The notes beneath the pieces were generated by a model. The model was not told where the DNA came from, made no database searches, and worked only from the letters and a program-made list of their open reading frames with translations. A program made the position numbers and the translations under genes. Positions 13-6,517 of a stretch of DNA of 6,517 bases are shown in pieces. The DNA comes from a bacterium (GTDB lineage Bacteria > Elusimicrobiota > Elusimicrobia > Elusimicrobiales > UBA9959): positions 1-6,517 of the forward strand of contig JAKAMO010000123.1 in the NCBI GenBank assembly GCA_021812825.1. Direction: 5' to 3'. How positions within the stretch are numbered: the first letter of the stretch is position 1; every line of letters starts with the position of its first letter.

Positions 13-441
13 ATGATACAGAAAACCACTTTGCCCAAAGCCGACACGGCCGAAAAAACCAGGAAATGGCATTTCCTAGACGCTTCCGACCAGGTCCTGG
101 GCCGGCTCTCCACCAAGATAGCCGTCCTACTGATGGGCAAGCACAAGCGCGACTTCGCTCCCCAGACCGACTGCGGCGATTTCGTAGTAGTGACCAACAC
201 GGACAAGCTCCGCATCACCGGCAGCAAGGCCGAGGACAAGTTCTACTTCCGCCACTCCGGCTACGCCGGCGGCGCGAAGACCATCCCCTACAAGAGGCAG
301 ATGGAGCAGGACTCGACCAAGGTGCTGGAGCTCGCAGTCAAGCGCATGCTCGACGACAACAAGATGCGCGCCAGGCGCATGAAGCGCCTGCGCATCTTCA
401 CAGGCACGCAGACCCAGTTCGGCGTCAAGAAGACCGCCTAA
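13..441 (+). CDS. rplM: Large ribosomal subunit protein uL13 (L13)
   Basis: This is an early-assembling 23S rRNA-binding protein of the 50S subunit. The 142-residue product has the length of E. coli L13. Family landmarks are LGRLSTKIAVLLMGKHK (residues 29-45), the DCGDFVVV segment (53-60) that matches DTGDYIIV in E. coli, HSGYAGG (81-87) for the usual HTG(Y/H)xGG, and the basic MKRLRIFTG stretch (123-131). The N-terminus is a few residues longer than in E. coli, and the lysine-rich tail is shorter. The ATG at 13 gives a complete protein; no purine-rich Shine-Dalgarno precedes it, and a -10-like hexamer lies just upstream, so the mRNA may be leaderless. It is followed 24 bp later by rpsI, the near-universal bacterial partner, and the two are surely cotranscribed. 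Confidence 0.97.
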   Translation: MIQKTTLPKADTAEKTRKWHFLDASDQVLGRLSTKIAVLLMGKHKRDFAPQTDCGDFVVVTNTDKLRITGSKAEDKFYFRHSGYAGGAKTIPYKRQMEQDSTKVLELAVKRMLDDNKMRARRMKRLRIFTGTQTQFGVKKTA

Positions 442-465: not shown

Positions 466-864
466 ATGGAAAACAAGAATCTGATACAGGCCACCGGCCG
501 CCGCAAGACCTCCATAGCCCAGATACGCCTTTCGCAGAACGGCGAGGGCAAGATCACCATCAACGCGAAGACCCCCGAGGAATACTTCGGCAACAACCCC
601 CGCCTCAAGCACGTCATCGTCACGCCGTTCGAACTGACGAAGGACCAGAAGTTCGACTGCGTCGTCAAGGTGGTCGGCGGCGGAGTTTCCAGCCAGGCCG
701 GCGCGATACGCCACGGCATCGCCCGCGCGATAGCCAGCCTCGGCGACAGCTTCCACTCCTCCATGAAGAAGGCCGGGTTCCTCACCCGCGACCCCCGCAT
801 GGTCGAGCGCAAGAAGTACGGACATCCGAAGGCCCGCAAGCGCTTCCAGTTCTCCAAGCGCTAA
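466..864 (+). CDS. rpsI: Small ribosomal subunit protein uS9 (S9)
   Basis: This 30S head protein has a C-terminal tail that reaches the P-site tRNA. The 132 residues fit the family length. Visible signatures are ATGRRKTSIA (residues 9-18), the glycine-rich GGGVSSQAGAIRHGIARAI segment (71-89), and the basic C-terminus DPRMVERKKYGHPKARK ending in RFQFSKR, where the terminal KR is the conserved tRNA-contacting tail. An AAGGA Shine-Dalgarno-like sequence at about 450-454 lies some 11 nt upstream of the ATG, slightly far but usable, in contrast to rplM, which has none. The gene closes the rplM-rpsI unit and is followed within about 20 bp by a strong intrinsic terminator. Confidence 0.97.
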   Translation: MENKNLIQATGRRKTSIAQIRLSQNGEGKITINAKTPEEYFGNNPRLKHVIVTPFELTKDQKFDCVVKVVGGGVSSQAGAIRHGIARAIASLGDSFHSSMKKAGFLTRDPRMVERKKYGHPKARKRFQFSKR

Positions 865-884: not shown

Positions 885-919
885 AGCCGGGGGAGGCCCA
901 AAGCCTCCCCCGGCTTTTT
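885..919 (+). terminator. Intrinsic terminator of the rplM-rpsI operon
   Basis: A perfect 13-bp inverted repeat (885-897 with 903-915) encloses a 5-nt loop, CCAAA, and runs directly into five T residues (915-919), then CTT. The GC-rich stem plus U-tract is a classic Rho-independent terminator. It lies 20 bp after the rpsI stop codon and separates this unit from the promoter that follows. Confidence 0.93.
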
Positions 920-928
920 CTTCAGCCT

Positions 929-958
929 TTGACCGGGACGGCGGCAATTAAATATCAT
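929..958 (+). promoter_or_regulatory. Sigma70-type promoter for the 966-5085 operon
   Basis: TTGACC at 929-934 matches five of six -35 consensus bases, and TATCAT at 953-958 matches five of six -10 bases, with an 18-bp spacer. It lies in the short gap just after the rpsI terminator. Seven bases separate the -10 from the ATG at 966, so transcription should start on or next to the start codon and give a leaderless mRNA. The hexamers are visible; the start point is inferred. Confidence 0.6.
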
Positions 959-965
959 CGCTATT

Positions 966-1505
966 ATGCGGAGTTTCCTGCTTAGACTCACCGATAAGCG
1001 GCTGCGCGCCACGCTCGGGACCGTCACAGGCTGCGGCGAAGCGCTGGGCGACCTGGAAAGGGAACCGGCGGCCGCGCCCACCCTGCTGCGGCCGTTCAGG
1101 AAGGAACTGGACTCGGCCCGGGCGGCCGGTTCCTCGCAGGAAGCCGGGCGCGCGCTGGCCGCCGCCGACGACTTCGCCGCCAGGCTGGAGAAGACCTTTT
1201 CCGACATGGCGCTGCTGCAGGTCCGTCCTGACTCTCCCAGCCGGGAAGCCCTGCTGCACCTGCAGCGGGCCTGCTCCCTGACCCCCCGCCTGCTCTCGCG
1301 CTCCGGCAGGGCCGCCGCCTCGGCCGAGCTGCTGGCGCACTGCGCCACCGGCCGCAAGGCCCTCTCCCTGGCCCTTTCCGCCGCGGCGGCCGCCGGTTCC
1401 CCCTCGAGTTTCCCGCTAAATCTCAAATTTAGTAGCATATACTCCGGACTCGACTCCGTCTTCGAAGCCCTGGAGCGCTGCGCCGGATCCCTTTACCTTA
1501 TCTAG
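966..1505 (+). CDS. Uncharacterised helical protein, possibly PhoU/DUF47-like
   Basis: The 179-residue product is rich in Ala, Leu, Ser and Arg. It has no signal peptide or clear transmembrane segment and is predicted to be mostly alpha-helical and cytoplasmic. I do not recognise it with confidence. The last 25 or so residues (SSIYSGLDSVFEALERCAGS) resemble the final helix of DUF47/PhoU-like proteins, which commonly ends in an IY..L.....DRCEDVA pattern. That would fit the phosphatase genes downstream, but the similarity is short and could be chance. Strong GC bias at third codon positions and a good promoter just upstream support real coding. No Shine-Dalgarno precedes the ATG. The stop codon (TAG) overlaps the Shine-Dalgarno TAGGAG of the next gene, 9 bp away, which argues for cotranscription. 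Long antisense open frames here are composition artefacts. Confidence 0.7.
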   Translation: MRSFLLRLTDKRLRATLGTVTGCGEALGDLEREPAAAPTLLRPFRKELDSARAAGSSQEAGRALAAADDFAARLEKTFSDMALLQVRPDSPSREALLHLQRACSLTPRLLSRSGRAAASAELLAHCATGRKALSLALSAAAAAGSPSSFPLNLKFSSIYSGLDSVFEALERCAGSLYLI

Positions 1506-1514
1506 GAGCCCCTG

Positions 1515-3062
1515 ATGAAAAAGCTGCTGACCGCCCTGCTTCTCGCCCTGCCCCTCTCCGCGTGGTCGCTGACCGTGGACATCTATCACACCAGCGACGC
1601 GCACGGCTGGTACTACTCCCGCCCCGCCAAATGGGACAAGGAGAATTCTACCCGCACCATCGGCGGCTTCGCGGCGCTCTCGGCGCTGGTCAGCGCGGAC
1701 AAGAATCCGCACATCCTGCTCGATTCCGGCGACACCTTCCAGGGCACCCCGGAAGGGACCCTTACCAAGGGCATGGCGACGGCCGCGATGATGAACCAGC
1801 TCGGCTACTCCGCCTGCGACATCGGGAACCACGACTACGACTACACCGAGGACAGCCTCAGGACCATGGTAAAGGCCTCCAGCTTCCCCTGGCTGGGCGC
1901 GAACGTCTACGTGAAGGAGACCGGAAAAGCCCCGGATTACCTGAAGCCGTACACGGTGGTCACGGTAGCGGGCAAACGCATCGCGGTGCTGGGCATAGCC
2001 GGCAAGCATACCGCCACCTCCACGCTCCCGGTCAACGTGAAGCACCTGGAGTTCCGGGACGAGAGCCAGGAAGCCGCCCGCTGGGCCAGGATCATCCGCG
2101 AGAACGAGAAACCCGACGCGCTCGTAGTGCTTTCCCATACCGGCTTCGGCCTGGGCCTCTCCGGGAAAAAGGACCTCACCGGCAAGACGTATGACGGCGA
2201 GATCCCGCCGGACAGCACGCTCGCGATAGCCCGGGCGTCCGGAGCGGACGTGGTGATAGGCGGCCACAACCACGCCGGCATAACGCGCGGCTACCGCGAC
2301 CCGGTCAGCGGCGCGCTGATAGCGGAAAGCTACTGGGGACTCACAGACGTCAGCAGGATCTCGCTGAACTTCGACGACAAGACCGGCAAGCTGACCGGGG
2401 ACTCCGACGAGCTGCTCCCGCTCTGGACCGACGTCACCGGCGAGGACCAGAAGGTCGTCCAGACGCTTAAAGGCTTCAGCGCCAAGGTGGACAAGGAGAT
2501 GGGCAAGGTGATAGGCCGCTCCGAAGTGGACCTGGGCTCCTCTCGCTCCGGCCTCGACTCGGACATAGGCAACTGGTTCACCGACGCGATGCGCAGGCAG
2601 TCCGGCGCGGACGTCGCGTTCCAGAACACCCCCGGCATACGTTCCGACCTGAAGGCAGGGGACATCCGCATGCGCGACATCTTCCAGGTCATGCCTTTCG
2701 AGAACACGCTGGTGACGCTGACGCTTACCGGAGAGCAGCTGCGCCGCCTGATGGCGGCCAACCTGCCCGGCGGATTTTCCAAGCTGCAGGTCTCAGGACT
2801 GAAAGTGACCTTCAGGTCCCCCTCCGACGATCCGGCCAACATCACGCTGGAGCGCGACGGAAAGCCGGTGGGGGACGGCGAGAGGTTCAAGGTCGCCACC
2901 AACAACTATCTCACCACCGGGGGAACGGGCGGCGCGGTCTTCTCGGAGGACAAGAACGCCGCAGACACGATGCTGCCGATACGCGACCTTCTGATCAAGG
3001 ACATCATGTCCAATCCGATAAAGTCCCGCCCCGAAGGAGGGAGGATAGTACGCCTCGATTAG
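1515..3062 (+). CDS. Secreted 5'-nucleotidase / metallophosphoesterase, UshA family
   Basis: The predicted enzyme hydrolyses nucleotide or cyclic-nucleotide phosphoesters outside the cytoplasm for phosphate and nucleoside salvage. The 515 residues begin with a signal peptide (KK, hydrophobic core, AWS before a likely cleavage after Ser18). The N-terminal calcineurin-like domain keeps all the dimetal motifs: DAHG (28-31), SGDT (71-74), GNHD (104-107), SHTG (207-210) and GGHNH (249-253). The C-terminal 5_nucleotid_C domain (about 325-515) shows DIGNWFTDAMR (350-360), NTPGIR (371-376), MPFENTLV and NYLTTGGTGG. Two substrate-site motifs deviate from the usual NxGGIR and GGDGY. The length suits UshA/YfkN-type enzymes. 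TAGGAG lies 6 nt before the ATG. The next gene overlaps its 3' end and encodes a degenerate paralog. Exact substrate (AMP, UDP-sugar, 2',3'-cNMP) cannot be told, so no symbol is given. Confidence 0.9.
   Translation: MKKLLTALLLALPLSAWSLTVDIYHTSDAHGWYYSRPAKWDKENSTRTIGGFAALSALVSADKNPHILLDSGDTFQGTPEGTLTKGMATAAMMNQLGYSACDIGNHDYDYTEDSLRTMVKASSFPWLGANVYVKETGKAPDYLKPYTVVTVAGKRIAVLGIAGKHTATSTLPVNVKHLEFRDESQEAARWARIIRENEKPDALVVLSHTGFGLGLSGKKDLTGKTYDGEIPPDSTLAIARASGADVVIGGHNHAGITRGYRDPVSGALIAESYWGLTDVSRISLNFDDKTGKLTGDSDELLPLWTDVTGEDQKVVQTLKGFSAKVDKEMGKVIGRSEVDLGSSRSGLDSDIGNWFTDAMRRQSGADVAFQNTPGIRSDLKAGDIRMRDIFQVMPFENTLVTLTLTGEQLRRLMAANLPGGFSKLQVSGLKVTFRSPSDDPANITLERDGKPVGDGERFKVATNNYLTTGGTGGAVFSEDKNAADTMLPIRDLLIKDIMSNPIKSRPEGGRIVRLD
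3036..3044 (+). promoter_or_regulatory. Shine-Dalgarno that places the lipoprotein start at ACG 3050
   Basis: GGAGGGAGG inside the last codons of the nucleotidase gene is a strong Shine-Dalgarno. Five bases after it, in the frame of the downstream lipoprotein, stands ACG at 3050-3052. No ATG, GTG or TTG exists in that frame before the lipobox, so this site is the best explanation of how the signal peptide is translated. Confidence 0.6.
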
Positions 3063-4498
3063 CGATCCCCGCCGCGCTGCTGGCCGCCCTGCTGCTGGCC
3101 GGCTGCGGCAGGAAGGAGCAGCTGGTGGTCTTCGCCACGGCCAGGTCCCAGGGCCGGCTGTGGTCCGAGGACGGCAGAGGCGGCTTCGCCGCCTTCAAGA
3201 ACCTTTACGATTCGGAGCGGAAGCCGAAGCTGGCGGTTGACCTGGGGAACTGGATCTCGGCCACCCCGGAGGGCCGGCTGACCGGCGGCACGGCCGCGGC
3301 GGAATGCGCGGCCGCCGTGCCCTATTCGGCCGCGGCCATCGGCATGGAAGAGCTGGCGCTCTCGCCCGACGAGCTCGAGCGGCTCGCCGAAGCCGCCTCC
3401 ATCCCGCTGCTGGCGTCCAACCTCTACCTCCGCAGCGACCGCAAACCGGACTTCCTCAGGAGCTGGAGCGTCTCAGAGGCCGGGGGCAGGAAGGTGGGCT
3501 TCTTCTCACTGCTGATAAATTCCCCGGAAAAGCCCAACTCCCGGAAATACCTCCCTAACTACAAGCTCGAGAAGGAAACTTACGAGGCGGAGAGGGCCAT
3601 ACACTCTCTCCGTGAAGCCGGCGCCCAGATAATAGTAATGCTGCTGGACATAAATCCCGCAGCCCCGGCCGGGCAGGAGTACTTCCGCACATTCCTTTCC
3701 AAGCTGCCCAGGGTCGACCTGGTCATCACCGACGACCCCTCGATCAAAAAGCCGTTCAAGGTCAAGCGCGCCTGGATAGCCGGGGCCGGGCACGGGATGA
3801 AGGACGCCGCCAGGATAACCCTCTACCTCGATCCGGACACGGGCCGCGTCACTGACGTCAAGCTGAAGAAAGTGGAGCTGGACGTCGCGAAGCTGGGCGA
3901 ATCTCCGGCCGTGCTCACGGTCGTGGAAAGGCACCGCAAAGCGGCGGCGACCCATTTCAGCAAGAAGATAGGTTTCCTTTCCGCCCCTCTTCCGCTGCAG
4001 GCCGGCGGGGACTATCCGGCCGCGGATTTCACCGCCGACTGCATGCGGCGCTGGGCCAGGACCAACGCCGCCATCATCGGCATCGACGAGGTGGCCGCCC
4101 CTCTCTCCAGCGGACCGGTCACGCTCGGGCACCTCTATTCCTCCTTCCCCCGCGAATCCAGCCTGGTCTTCGTCAAGATCCGCGGAGAGGACCTGGAACG
4201 GGCGCTCGACGGCCTGCATCCCTACGGCATAACGGTCTCCGGCCTGAAGCTTTACCTCAGAGGCCAGGCTCTGGAGAAGACCGAGGGCGAGAACGGCCCC
4301 CTGGTGCCGGGCAGGGTATACCATCTGGCAGTCCCGGATTCGCTGGCCAGCGGCAGGGACAACCCGGTGCTCTCGAGCGCGATGGAGTTCGCGAACTCTA
4401 AGCACCGCGTGCGGGACGCCGTACGCTGGTGCCTGGCGCGCCAGGGCGTGACCGGCCCGCCCGCCGGCGGCAGGCTCGTTAGGGCAACGGCGGACTGA
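3050..4498 (+). CDS. Lipoprotein pseudoenzyme paralog of the UshA-type nucleotidase
   Basis: Read from ACG at 3050, the 482-residue product starts with a short lipoprotein signal peptide (Arg3, hydrophobic core, LAG before Cys19). A GTG at 3125 gives a 457-residue form but would discard the lipobox. The body aligns along its length with the preceding enzyme: GGFAAF, ATPEGRLTGG, a SNLYL segment for GANVYV, WIAGAGHGMKDAARITLYLDPDTGRVT for the strand after the fourth metal motif, and a C-terminal domain with DFTADCMRR and VSGLKLYLRG. Every metal ligand is replaced: D28>R32, H30>Q34, D73>N67, N105>M99, H106>E100, H208>D, and GGHNH>TDDPS. The NxGGIR and PFxN substrate motifs are also lost. It is therefore predicted to be non-catalytic; binding, scaffolding or regulation is inference. 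Its stop overlaps the next ATG by one base (TGATG). Confidence 0.85.
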   Translation, partial: TPRLAIPAALLAALLLAGCGRKEQLVVFATARSQGRLWSEDGRGGFAAFKNLYDSERKPKLAVDLGNWISATPEGRLTGGTAAAECAAAVPYSAAAIGMEELALSPDELERLAEAASIPLLASNLYLRSDRKPDFLRSWSVSEAGGRKVGFFSLLINSPEKPNSRKYLPNYKLEKETYEAERAIHSLREAGAQIIVMLLDINPAAPAGQEYFRTFLSKLPRVDLVITDDPSIKKPFKVKRAWIAGAGHGMKDAARITLYLDPDTGRVTDVKLKKVELDVAKLGESPAVLTVVERHRKAAATHFSKKIGFLSAPLPLQAGGDYPAADFTADCMRRWARTNAAIIGIDEVAAPLSSGPVTLGHLYSSFPRESSLVFVKIRGEDLERALDGLHPYGITVSGLKLYLRGQALEKTEGENGPLVPGRVYHLAVPDSLASGRDNPVLSSAMEFANSKHRVRDAVRWCLARQGVTGPPAGGRLVRATAD

Positions 4499-5085
4499 TG
4501 TTCCAGGCCCTCCGGGACTTCTTCGCCAGATGGTTCGGAAGGTTCCGCGCGTTCGCCATGCTGGCCGGCGCCTGGGGCATCATCTTCAGCGTAAACACGC
4601 TGATAGGCTTCCGCGCCGGCTTCGAATACGACGACGGGCTGGTCTATTCCACCCCGGCCTTCCAGGCGGCGGCCAAGGACAAGCTGCAGCCGGGGAGTCC
4701 GGACTACTGGAACTCGGTCAACCGTTCGTTCGTCTTCGAGCGCCTCAAGCCGGTGCCCTGGCTGACGGCCTGGCTATTGCGCTCCCTGGGGGTTAAGGTA
4801 ACGCTCTTCCTGGACCGGGGCCCGGAGGGGGCCGACAGCCTGGAGGCCTCCTGGAGAAAGCTGGCCGACGAGTTCCGCTTCACCTCCAGCGAGGACGACA
4901 AATACCGCGCCCTTGAGAAGGGCAGATTCATCCTTTACGCCTCCCCCTCCGATTCCGGCATCATACAAGCCAGAAAAGCCGGCGTCTGGCCCCTGCGGAT
5001 AACCAGGAGCAGGAAGTCGGTCAACCCGCTGGAAAGCACCCCCGGCAAGTTCGGGGAGCGAGTGCTCCCGTTGTCCCGCTTCTGA
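4498..5085 (+). CDS. Membrane-anchored class B acid phosphatase-like HAD protein, likely inactive
   Basis: The 195-residue product has an arginine-flanked hydrophobic segment at about 18-38 that could act as an uncleaved signal anchor, exporting the rest. The remainder resembles AphA, the periplasmic class B acid phosphatase. GFEYDDGLVYSTPAF (41-55) matches GFDIDDTVLFSSPGF, SPDYW (67-71) matches SEDYL, and LYASPSDSGIIQARKAGVWPLRI (146-168) matches [22 protein letters not shown]. The C-terminal FGERVLPLSRF matches FGEEVIVNSEY. The nucleophile Asp of DxDDT is Glu43, the motif Thr is Gly47, the TGR of motif II reads LDRGP (105-109), and the first Asp of GDSDND is lost. Phosphatase activity is therefore doubtful. 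The ATG overlaps the preceding stop (TGATG), implying translational coupling. Homology rests on motifs recalled by eye; an alignment would settle it. Confidence 0.75.
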   Translation: MFQALRDFFARWFGRFRAFAMLAGAWGIIFSVNTLIGFRAGFEYDDGLVYSTPAFQAAAKDKLQPGSPDYWNSVNRSFVFERLKPVPWLTAWLLRSLGVKVTLFLDRGPEGADSLEASWRKLADEFRFTSSEDDKYRALEKGRFILYASPSDSGIIQARKAGVWPLRITRSRKSVNPLESTPGKFGERVLPLSRF

Positions 5086-5093
5086 CCGCAGAT

Positions 5094-5123
5094 TTGCCCT
5101 CCCCCCCTATAAAATAATAAAAT
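5094..5123 (+). promoter_or_regulatory. Candidate promoter of the HIT-domain gene
   Basis: TTGCCC at 5094-5099 and TAAAAT at 5118-5123 are separated by 18 bp, in a conspicuously AT-rich patch (5108-5126) within GC-rich DNA. Eight bases separate the -10 from the ATG at 5132, again predicting a leaderless or near-leaderless transcript. Overlapping alternatives such as TATAAA at 5108 make the exact hexamer uncertain. Confidence 0.5.
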
Positions 5124-5131
5124 ATACGGGA

Positions 5132-5473
5132 ATGGCGGACTGTATATTCTGCAAGATAGCGTCCGGAGAGGTGAACTCGAAGGTCGTATACGAGGACCCC
5201 GACATCCTGGCCTTCCTGGACCTTAACCCCCAGGCCCCCACTCATGTTCTTATTATCCCGCGCCGTCATATAGACAGGCTTTCGGCCGTGTCCGACGCCG
5301 ACGCGGAGCTGCTAGGCAAGCTGCAGCTGGCGGCCGCAAGAACGGCCAAGCTGCTGAAGGTGGAGGGCGGCTTCCGCCTCGTCACTAACAACGGCAGGGG
5401 AGCCGGGCAGGCCGTGGACCACCTGCACTATCACCTGCTGGGCGGCAGGAAGATGCTGTGGCCCCCGGGCTAG
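5132..5473 (+). CDS. HINT-type HIT-domain nucleotide-binding protein
   Basis: Proteins of this branch of the histidine-triad superfamily are cytoplasmic purine nucleoside phosphoramidases (AMP-NH2 or AMP-lysine type substrates). The 113 residues are a full-length HINT protein. Visible are the N-terminal DCIFCKI with zinc-type CxxC (Cys4, Cys7), FLDLNPQAPTHVLIIPRRH (28-46, with His46 as a possible zinc ligand), NNGRGAGQAV (86-95), the triad HLHYHLL (97-103, His99 the expected nucleophile) and the diagnostic HINT tail GGRKMLWPPG (104-113). No proper Shine-Dalgarno precedes the ATG; an AT-rich promoter-like patch lies directly upstream. The gene sits 46 bp after the phosphatase-like operon and 46 bp before rpsU. 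No intrinsic terminator is visible on either side, so read-through from upstream or into rpsU is possible. Confidence 0.94.
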   Translation: MADCIFCKIASGEVNSKVVYEDPDILAFLDLNPQAPTHVLIIPRRHIDRLSAVSDADAELLGKLQLAAARTAKLLKVEGGFRLVTNNGRGAGQAVDHLHYHLLGGRKMLWPPG

Positions 5474-5803: not shown

Positions 5804-6517
5804 ATGAGTTCTTCGCCGATAATAGAGCTGATCAGGGAAAAACTGGACATCGTAGAGGTGGTCCGGGAGTACGTGCCGTCCCTTAGGAGGGCCGGGCGCA
5901 ACTACAAGGCCAACTGTCCGTTCCACAACGAGAAGACCCCCTCCTTCACCGTCAACCCGGACAAGAAGATCTTCTTCTGCTTCGGCTGCAGCACCGGCGG
6001 TGACATCTTCAAGTTCGTGATGGACATAGAGGGGCTGACGTTCCCCGAAGCCGCGCGCAAGCTGGCCCAGAAGGCCGGAGTGGAGTACGGCGACGAGAAG
6101 GCCCACCCGATCTCTCCGGAGGACAGGGAGCGCCTGGAGCTCAAGAAGATCATGAAGGCCGCCGCGGCCTTCTACCACAAGCAGCTTTTCTCCCCCGCGG
6201 GGGAGAAGGCCAAGCTTTACCTGGGCGAGCGCCGCCTCAGCAAGGCCACCGTGGAGAAGTTCGAGCTCGGCTGGGCGCCGGCTACCGGCAAGGCGCTGAT
6301 GGACGAGCTGAAGAAGGCCGGCTGGAGCCGCGACCTGGCGCTCAAGGCGGGGCTCATAACCGAGCGCGAGGGCGGGAGAGTCGCGGATACGTTCCGGGGC
6401 CGCGTGATCTTCCCGATAAAGAGCCAGTCCGGGGACGTGATCGCTTTCGGCGGCCGCGTGCTGGACCCGGAAGGGATGCCCAAGTACCTCAACTCCCCGG
6501 AGACGCCGCTGTTCTCC
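5804..6517 (+). CDS. dnaG: DNA primase DnaG, N-terminal part (cut by window end)
   Basis: DnaG synthesises RNA primers at the replication fork together with DnaB helicase. The 238 codons present run in frame to the last base, about 40 % of a usual 580-650-residue primase. The CHC2 zinc-binding domain is complete: Cys38, His41, Cys59 and Cys62 in CPFHNEKTPSF and FFCFGC, followed by GGDIFKFVMDIEGLTFPEAARKLA (65-88). The start of the TOPRIM-containing polymerase core follows, with YLGERRLS, the FELGWAP segment, FRGRVIFPI, IAFGGRVLD and the PKYLNSPETPLF stretch that ends the window. The catalytic TOPRIM acidic residues lie beyond the edge. The ATG at 5804 gives the normal family N-terminus (IIELIREKLDIVEVV); no Shine-Dalgarno is visible before it. 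Confidence 0.97.
   Translation, partial: MSSSPIIELIREKLDIVEVVREYVPSLRRAGRNYKANCPFHNEKTPSFTVNPDKKIFFCFGCSTGGDIFKFVMDIEGLTFPEAARKLAQKAGVEYGDEKAHPISPEDRERLELKKIMKAAAAFYHKQLFSPAGEKAKLYLGERRLSKATVEKFELGWAPATGKALMDELKKAGWSRDLALKAGLITEREGGRVADTFRGRVIFPIKSQSGDVIAFGGRVLDPEGMPKYLNSPETPLFS

Follow-up and report, generated by a model that had tools for sequence, protein, structure and literature searches.

Introduction

The locus described here lies in a 6,517-nt stretch of Elusimicrobiota DNA (the window, by which we mean the whole stretch analysed) and consists of four same-strand genes: orf1, a UshA-type gene (gene 2), a UshA paralog (gene 3), and an AphA-like gene (gene 4). Its components are known from described systems. 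Nucleotidases of the UshA/CD73 family carry the domains PF00149 and PF02872, and the Asp of the UshA GGDG motif contacts ribose. Gene 2 has both domains and all of the metal motifs of this family; it differs in reading GG(T/S)GG for GGDG(F/Y), and its ribose recognition may differ. Gene 3 is a member of the same family by descent and lacks the metal site.

Class B acid phosphatases are defined by two pairs of essential Asp residues (DDDD), as stated in the part of PMC8475336 cited here. Gene 4 shares with AphA, a class B enzyme of the HAD type, the fold, the pocket residues, and the C-terminus. It differs from AphA in the exchange of the nucleophile from D to E, in a T-to-G exchange, and in a broken motif IV, as well as in its uncleaved-looking N-terminal membrane helix and its place behind UshA-type genes. 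A precedent for a non-catalytic HAD protein that binds partners is PcrP (PA2803) of Pseudomonas aeruginosa, which has the HAD fold without the catalytic residues, is regulated by phosphate, and acts by binding protein partners (PMC12632274). Unlike gene 4, PcrP is cytoplasmic, has a C1-cap, and is related to phosphonatases rather than to AphA, and the part of that account cited here names no nucleotidase partner (PMC12632274). In the open-licence literature searched, no system of this composition was described, and neither the combination nor a repeated conversion of AphA to a pseudoenzyme behind a live UshA was found.

Results

An apparently active UshA-type enzyme

The four genes of the locus are as follows.

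966..1505, + strand: orf1, a cytoplasmic all-helical protein with a PhoU-like fold
1515..3062, + strand: gene 2, a UshA-type 5'-nucleotidase with a signal peptide as judged from the sequence and all dimetal motifs (Pfam, PDB match, and motif alignment)
3050 (ACG)..4498, + strand: gene 3, a dead UshA paralog and lipoprotein (identity to gene 2, metal motifs lost)
4498..5085, + strand: gene 4, an AphA-like class B HAD pseudoenzyme with a predicted N-terminal membrane helix (profile, model, and Foldseek)

These coordinates confirmed the layout given in the initial annotation, in which orf1 and gene 2 are separated by 9 nt, gene 2 and gene 3 overlap by 13 nt when ACG is taken as the start, and gene 3 and gene 4 overlap by 1 nt. 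The locus was compared with 33 related loci (loci and genomes are numbered with L and G, respectively), 31 of which are labelled Elusimicrobia, Elusimicrobiales, or Elusimicrobiota and two only "bacterium". Of the loci with DNA available, L010 is the closest, its UshA-type protein being 90% identical to that of the window.

Gene 2 matched PF00149 (E 5.5e-10) and PF02872 (E 1.3e-35), and aligned along most of its length to the nucleotidase 3ivd in the PDB (E 1.2e-54). The dimetal and catalytic motifs D-x-H, GD, GNH(D/E), H, and H-x-H were kept in 33/33 aligned rows (the fragment L033 was dropped), the last of them reading GSHNH in L021; the expected retention of every UshA-family metal motif was thus borne out. 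On the substrate side, the aromatic sandwich positions F395 and Y465 were kept. The motif GGDG(F/Y) read GG(T/S)GG in 32 of the 33 rows, with F in L028, and the window has T at the position of the 3ivd Asp. GGDG(Y/F) was kept in 10/15 deep UshA rows from loci without gene 3. Since the ribose-contacting Asp is replaced by T or S, the nucleotide specificity of gene 2 is uncertain. Judging from its sequence, gene 2 apparently encodes an active, periplasm-directed metallophosphatase. Export signals were read from the sequence (lipobox Cys, predicted N-terminal helix), and those anticipated for all three phosphatase-related proteins were found: a signal peptide in gene 2, an invariant lipobox Cys in gene 3, and a predicted helix at residues 2-36 in gene 4.

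Many genomes of the family also have a second UshA-type gene outside the operon, such as G111:C26:84817-86337 (L156). Extra UshA-type genes in the stretches L107, L149-L152, and L156 read GGDGG, GGNGG, or GGTGG.

A dead UshA paralog

Gene 3 was 24% identical to gene 2 over 464 alignment columns (E 5e-34). PF02872 was found in all 31 gene 3 members scanned and PF00149 in none of them, and none of 32 rows kept GNH(D/E) or H-x-H. The motif 1 Asp persisted in L021, L024, L026, L027, L028, and L032, and GD in L026-L028. The initial annotation had described gene 3 as a UshA paralog with no metal motif at all: the paralogy and the loss of the central motifs stood, whereas the complete absence did not extend to these six relatives. 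The substrate-side motifs N-x-x-G-I-R, P-F-E-N, and T-T-G-G were intact in no row of the 32, and single residues of them persisted (R in L021 and L032, F in L014). Because no nucleotide-recognition motif is intact, UshA-like binding of nucleotides by gene 3 is improbable. The lipobox Cys19 was invariant in 31 aligned rows.

In a quick tree of 67 chosen UshA-type proteins, a subset of those fetched, a single change separated the rows with GNH(D/E) and H-x-H from those without them (Shimodaira-Hasegawa-like approximate likelihood ratio support 100). The gene 3 type was also found behind a metal-complete UshA in nine genomes outside the trio clade (the clade with genes 2, 3, and 4 together). Eight of these genomes are 1.3-1.6 Mb in size (L096-L098, L100-L102, L104, L105) and one is 2.2 Mb (L099). 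The 41 genomes with a gene 4 match include none of these nine, and six of the nine stretches have rplM and rpsI nearby. The gene 3 type of L099 is intermediate, keeping motif 1, GD, and one His, with GNH gone. As a side observation, L097, L098, L101, and L105, small Elusimicrobiota genomes without a gene 4 match, have two metal-complete UshA genes in tandem followed by the dead paralog near rplM-rpsI.

The start of gene 3 was scored in 58 rows, 24 of which were duplicates; weak gene 3 matches were passed over, and eight loci (L021, L024, L026, L027, L028, L032, L076, L140) went unscored as the Cys pattern failed. A usual start was present in 28 distinct rows. No ATG, GTG, or TTG was found 13-40 codons ahead of the lipobox Cys in six distinct loci, namely the window, L002, L005, L010, L025, and L131. 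All six have an in-frame ACG (3050-3052 in the window) at an equal distance from the gene 2 stop and behind a Shine-Dalgarno-like GGGAG. In the first set, ACG stood at that place in 5/5 loci without a usual start and in 2/27 with one (Fisher p 1e-4, not corrected for kinship). The near-cognate codons ATC, ATA, and CTG also occur in these six loci, 11-13 codons from the Cys, and a start there would therefore leave a very short signal. ACG is thus the best candidate start of gene 3 in the six loci. The part of PMC11445065 consulted here, which deals with non-ATG starts, has no bearing on ACG.

A dead AphA-like protein with a conserved former active site

Gene 4 matched no Pfam family. It matched the NCBIfam model of AphA with E 9.8e-9, below the cut-off of that model (35.1 of 195.8 bits), and when its profile was compared with the PDB, only AphA chains were significant (E 2e-9 to 4.5e-8). 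The AlphaFold model of gene 4 had a mean predicted local distance difference test score of 91.8, and its 13 best rows in Foldseek were all AphA (E 1e-10 to 9e-9, template modelling score 0.65-0.70). Motif I, FDIDDT in AphA, reads FEYDDG, and motif IV, GDSDND, reads SPSDSG. These results agree with the earlier proposal that gene 4 resembles class B HAD phosphatases with altered catalytic motifs: the two Asp pairs of that class are incomplete in gene 4, and the AphA fold and sequence similarity are present. Among the best 120 of 166 relatives of gene 4, every organism named belonged to Elusimicrobia, Elusimicrobiales, or Elusimicrobiota.

In a conservation alignment of 29 rows, which excludes L008 and L020 as partial, the position of the motif I nucleophile was E in 29/29 rows and the first Asp of motif IV was absent. 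F42, E43, Y44, D46, R107, D152, R167, S174, and E187 were invariant, F55 and W71 were kept in 28 of the 29 rows, and the motif IV positions 149, 150, and 153 varied. The former active site is hence among the most conserved parts of gene 4. By alignment to the AphA chains, F55 and W71 match the pocket residues F56 and W77 of AphA. Gene 4 appears to keep a candidate ligand pocket, and it is the only one of the two dead members to do so. The suggestion that both dead members bind nucleotides was consequently not sustained, as gene 3 has no intact substrate motif. In the AlphaFold model, the N-terminal helix of residues 2-36 is likely a membrane anchor and looks uncleaved.

Conservation and selection

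Behind gene 2, gene 3 was present in 31/33 loci and both gene 3 and gene 4 in 30/33, with the order kept; conservation of order in related genomes was a check proposed in the initial annotation. As for the three loci without the full trio, L026 is cut off within gene 3, L033 is fragmentary, and L019 has UshA alone. Its coordinates identify L019 with the UshA gene of G205; in that genome, genes 3 and 4 are next to rpsI on a separate contig.

In a sample of 59 genomes of the family of G001, 51 had gene 4, as a single match in 46 and as pieces or with a second copy in five. Gene 3 reached E <= 1e-80 in 46 of the 59 genomes and gene 2 reached E <= 1e-100 in 57, where the gene 2 match was not always the operon copy. 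This frequency of UshA-type genes in one Elusimicrobiota family contrasts with a survey of complete genomes, whose Table 3 lists Elusimicrobiota without ushA-like genes (PMC10454023, of which we cite that part); the score cut-off of the survey and the small number of complete genomes may explain the difference. Gene 4 was found in 47 of the 49 family genomes that have rpsI. It was missing from two: G202, identified with L026 by its coordinates, stops within gene 3, and in G083 gene 3 is broken in two frames and the contig ends about 50 nt behind it. Among the 13 family genomes without gene 3 at the threshold, five (G031, G178, G201, G208, and G209) have a gene 3 that is weaker or cut. G107, G121, G215, G225, and G227 have UshA and neither partner. 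They were rejected as evidence of a true absence of the trio: rpsI was also not found there, and the trio region is therefore probably missing from these five assemblies. In a sample of 198 genomes of the phylum, gene 4 had a match in 41.

The ratio of nonsynonymous to synonymous substitution rates (dN/dS) in six pairs was 0.12-0.34 for gene 2, 0.14-0.36 for gene 3, and 0.11-0.16 for gene 4 (one pair with 63 codons only); that of orf1 was 0.22-0.41 in the five pairs having orf1. In five pairs the value of gene 4 was lower than that of the active enzyme; in the sixth it was 0.162 versus 0.123. The genes of the trio are under purifying selection and are not relics. None of the findings named beforehand as counterevidence appeared: the trio is not confined to a single genome, dN/dS of genes 3 and 4 does not indicate decay (0.11-0.36), and gene 4 matches HAD phosphatases of the AphA type.

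Recurrent loss of AphA catalysis

We also collected 32 further loci with an AphA-like gene. This gene stands directly behind UshA or behind gene 3 in 18 of them and with one gene between in three, and in 11 the fetched stretch had no UshA. A tree was built from 61 AphA-like proteins, leaving out partial rows such as L008 and L020; FDxDDT and GDSDxD were kept in 15 of these proteins and not in the other 46. Once the motif columns were taken out, the tree placed the dead rows in four clades: that of the window (35), L078/L081/L082/L083 (4), L065/L066/L085/L086 (4), and L089/L091/L092 (3). A single dead clade was rejected by the approximately unbiased test (p 0.0045), and so was a joint clade of the two groups with FEYDDG (p 0.015), the motif columns being left out in both tests; these p values are optimistic because the groups were named after the first tree was seen. 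The program also warned that some long branches meet in this tree. By parsimony, three changes of state suffice, for instance one gain with two losses; four losses follow only if the intact state is ancestral and was never regained. Judging from these sequences, AphA-type catalysis seems to have been lost at least twice and probably four times.

The same D-to-E and T-to-G exchange in motif I occurs in a second clade besides that of the window. In L078, L081-L083, L089, L091, and L092, a dead AphA stands directly behind a metal-complete UshA with no gene 3 between, and by these seven rows gene 3 is no precondition for the loss of AphA activity. Intact AphA stands behind a UshA-type gene in L080, L084, L087, L088, and L090.

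Neighbouring genes and transcription signals

The other features of the window are as follows, gene names being based on sequence.

13..441, + strand: rplM (L13), upstream neighbour, position conserved
466..864, + strand: rpsI (S9), upstream neighbour, present in 29/33 loci
885..915, + strand: rho-independent terminator after rpsI, with a 13-bp stem and T tail (fold -31 kcal/mol, z -6.0)
929..958, + strand: promoter-like site TTGACC-18-TATCAT, 10/12 matches
5132..5473, + strand: HIT-family protein, downstream neighbour in 24/33 loci, far off in L013
5508..5711, + strand: rpsU (S21), downstream neighbour in 23/33 loci
5804..6517, + strand: dnaG (gene start), conserved downstream neighbour

The terminator hairpin separates the operon from rplM-rpsI, and all four genes are apparently on one transcript. 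A promoter-like site, corresponding to the single good promoter proposed earlier, lies behind the terminator; the site alone is weak evidence, because the whole window has two promoter-like sites against a mean of 0.8 in shuffled sequences. Its -10 element ends 7 nt ahead of the orf1 ATG, and orf1 may therefore be leaderless. We further observed a -10-like TAnnnT ending 4-10 nt before the start codon in 17/24 orf1 genes and in 17/24 HIT genes (929-966 and 5094-5132 in the window, and relatives; no shuffled control), as well as a TTGCC element upstream of TAnnnT in many HIT genes. Leaderless transcripts in Elusimicrobiota are a possible reading of this placement.

orf1 and the phosphate-uptake operon of deep relatives

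The initial annotation had missed the PhoU-like fold of orf1 and the likeness of the locus to a phosphate-uptake operon of deep relatives. The helical fold was found by structure comparison (Foldseek E 0.026). None of 24 members matched PF01865 (DUF47) at E <= 1, and a profile comparison of orf1 with DUF47 was not significant (probability 0.4%), so that sequence proof of DUF47 was not reached. Against solved structures, the orf1 profile found no clear relative, the best row being a designed protein (E 0.00094). From its fold and position, orf1 is probably a diverged DUF47/PhoU relative.

A likeness to the known PiT-DUF47 phosphate-uptake pair lies in the fold of orf1 and in four deep relatives, L064, L067, L080, and L093, where UshA comes immediately after a DUF47 PhoU-like gene. 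In L064, the only locus where the gene upstream of it was tested, a PHO4 permease precedes the DUF47 gene. The operon thus seems to resemble the phosphate-uptake operon of deep relatives, the place of orf1 being taken there by the DUF47 gene. Unlike that pair, orf1 has no Pfam match, and canonical PHO4 and DUF47 genes stand elsewhere in 9/9 genomes searched from the clade of the window. orf1 had a match in 13 of the 198 genomes of the phylum sample. Separately, UshA and an intact AphA are separated in L064, L067, and L093 by a gene of some 210-270 aa, and a tpiA-like gene (named from sequence) follows; the intervening gene had no Pfam match in L064 and L093, the two tested.

Discussion

The composition first proposed for this locus, one active-looking enzyme with two non-catalytic relatives of different folds, proved to be a conserved unit under purifying selection. 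As its best explanation, to which we give about even credence, we propose an envelope operon for organophosphate scavenging in which catalysis falls on one enzyme and the pseudoenzymes bind a ligand or a partner. We infer the association, ligand, substrate, and regulation in this proposal. The UshA-type enzyme would free phosphate and a nucleoside or other alcohol from periplasmic organophosphates. At the inner membrane, the dead AphA would bind a ligand (a nucleoside, phosphate, or a phosphoester), dock the active enzyme, or do both. Having no catalysis of its own, the dead UshA lipoprotein would partner or tether its live paralog, and phosphate uptake would be tuned from inside the cell by the PhoU-like protein. 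A narrower version is put forward tentatively: a single live nucleotidase would have two dead phosphatases of unrelated folds as its non-catalytic subunits. With its former active site retained as a ligand pocket, the dead AphA would capture product or substrate at the inner membrane, and the dead UshA lipoprotein would hold the live paralog in position. AphA would have been converted in this way independently on several occasions, two of them through an identical D-to-E and T-to-G exchange.

Several observations weigh against the scavenging operon. The dead UshA has no intact nucleotide-recognition motif. Rate covariation was uninformative, as it did not single out the trio and was as strong with dnaG: the partial r of the dead UshA with the dead AphA was 0.61, and those of the two with dnaG were 0.83 and 0.70, respectively, while UshA covaried weakly with the dead UshA (0.19) and hardly with the dead AphA (-0.03). 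The PhoU homology of orf1 draws on fold and position, its profile comparison not being significant, and orf1 has no room in L011 and L014, where the gap between rpsI and gene 2 is <200 nt and the trio is kept. The UshA of G205 is on a different contig from genes 3 and 4 (an assembly fault is possible), and a dead AphA occurs with no UshA in the fetched stretch of L065, L066, L085, and L086.

These last two observations would suit three envelope proteins that share a transcript and a pathway without touching, the dead ones being independent periplasmic binding proteins (one for nucleoside or phosphate, the other a structural lipoprotein), and shared regulation would explain the co-conservation of the trio as well as a complex does. 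We consider this possible and yet doubtful, for the order and tight spacing of the trio are conserved and the dead UshA stands behind a metal-complete UshA both in trio loci and in loci outside the trio clade. It is unlikely that the AphA-like protein is instead a membrane receptor whose former active site senses phosphate or nucleotide and signals across the membrane to the PhoU-like protein. The retained site despite lost catalysis, the N-terminal membrane helix, and the PhoU-fold protein of the same operon fit such a role; the approximately 17 cytoplasmic residues read from the sequence leave little room for signal output, and L011 and L014 keep the trio without orf1.

The seemingly dead proteins might also be enzymes with a changed chemistry, for example with Glu43 as the nucleophile or with a different metal site. 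The invariance of Glu43 and the recurrence of the D-to-E and T-to-G change in a second clade speak for it. We nevertheless regard it as quite unlikely, as gene 4 has lost the first acidic residue of motif IV, one of those that hold Mg in HAD enzymes, and both the metal and the substrate motifs are broken in the dead UshA. Decaying relics carried along by the operon would account for the lost catalytic residues, for gene 3 broken in two frames in G083, and for a stop inside the gene 4 piece of G238. The low dN/dS of genes 3 and 4, their presence across the family, and the absence, except in G238, of internal stops among the gene 3 and gene 4 matches listed in the family make this highly improbable, and we rejected it on dN/dS and conservation.

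For the study of pseudoenzymes, the locus offers a natural experiment, as one phylum has both intact and dead AphA behind UshA-type genes. The repeated loss of catalysis with the former active site and the gene neighbour kept makes the retention of a dead enzyme testable. These findings suggest that the dead copies took on a new job, perhaps capturing phosphate compounds, and hint at how the mostly uncultured Elusimicrobiota may obtain phosphate or nucleosides.

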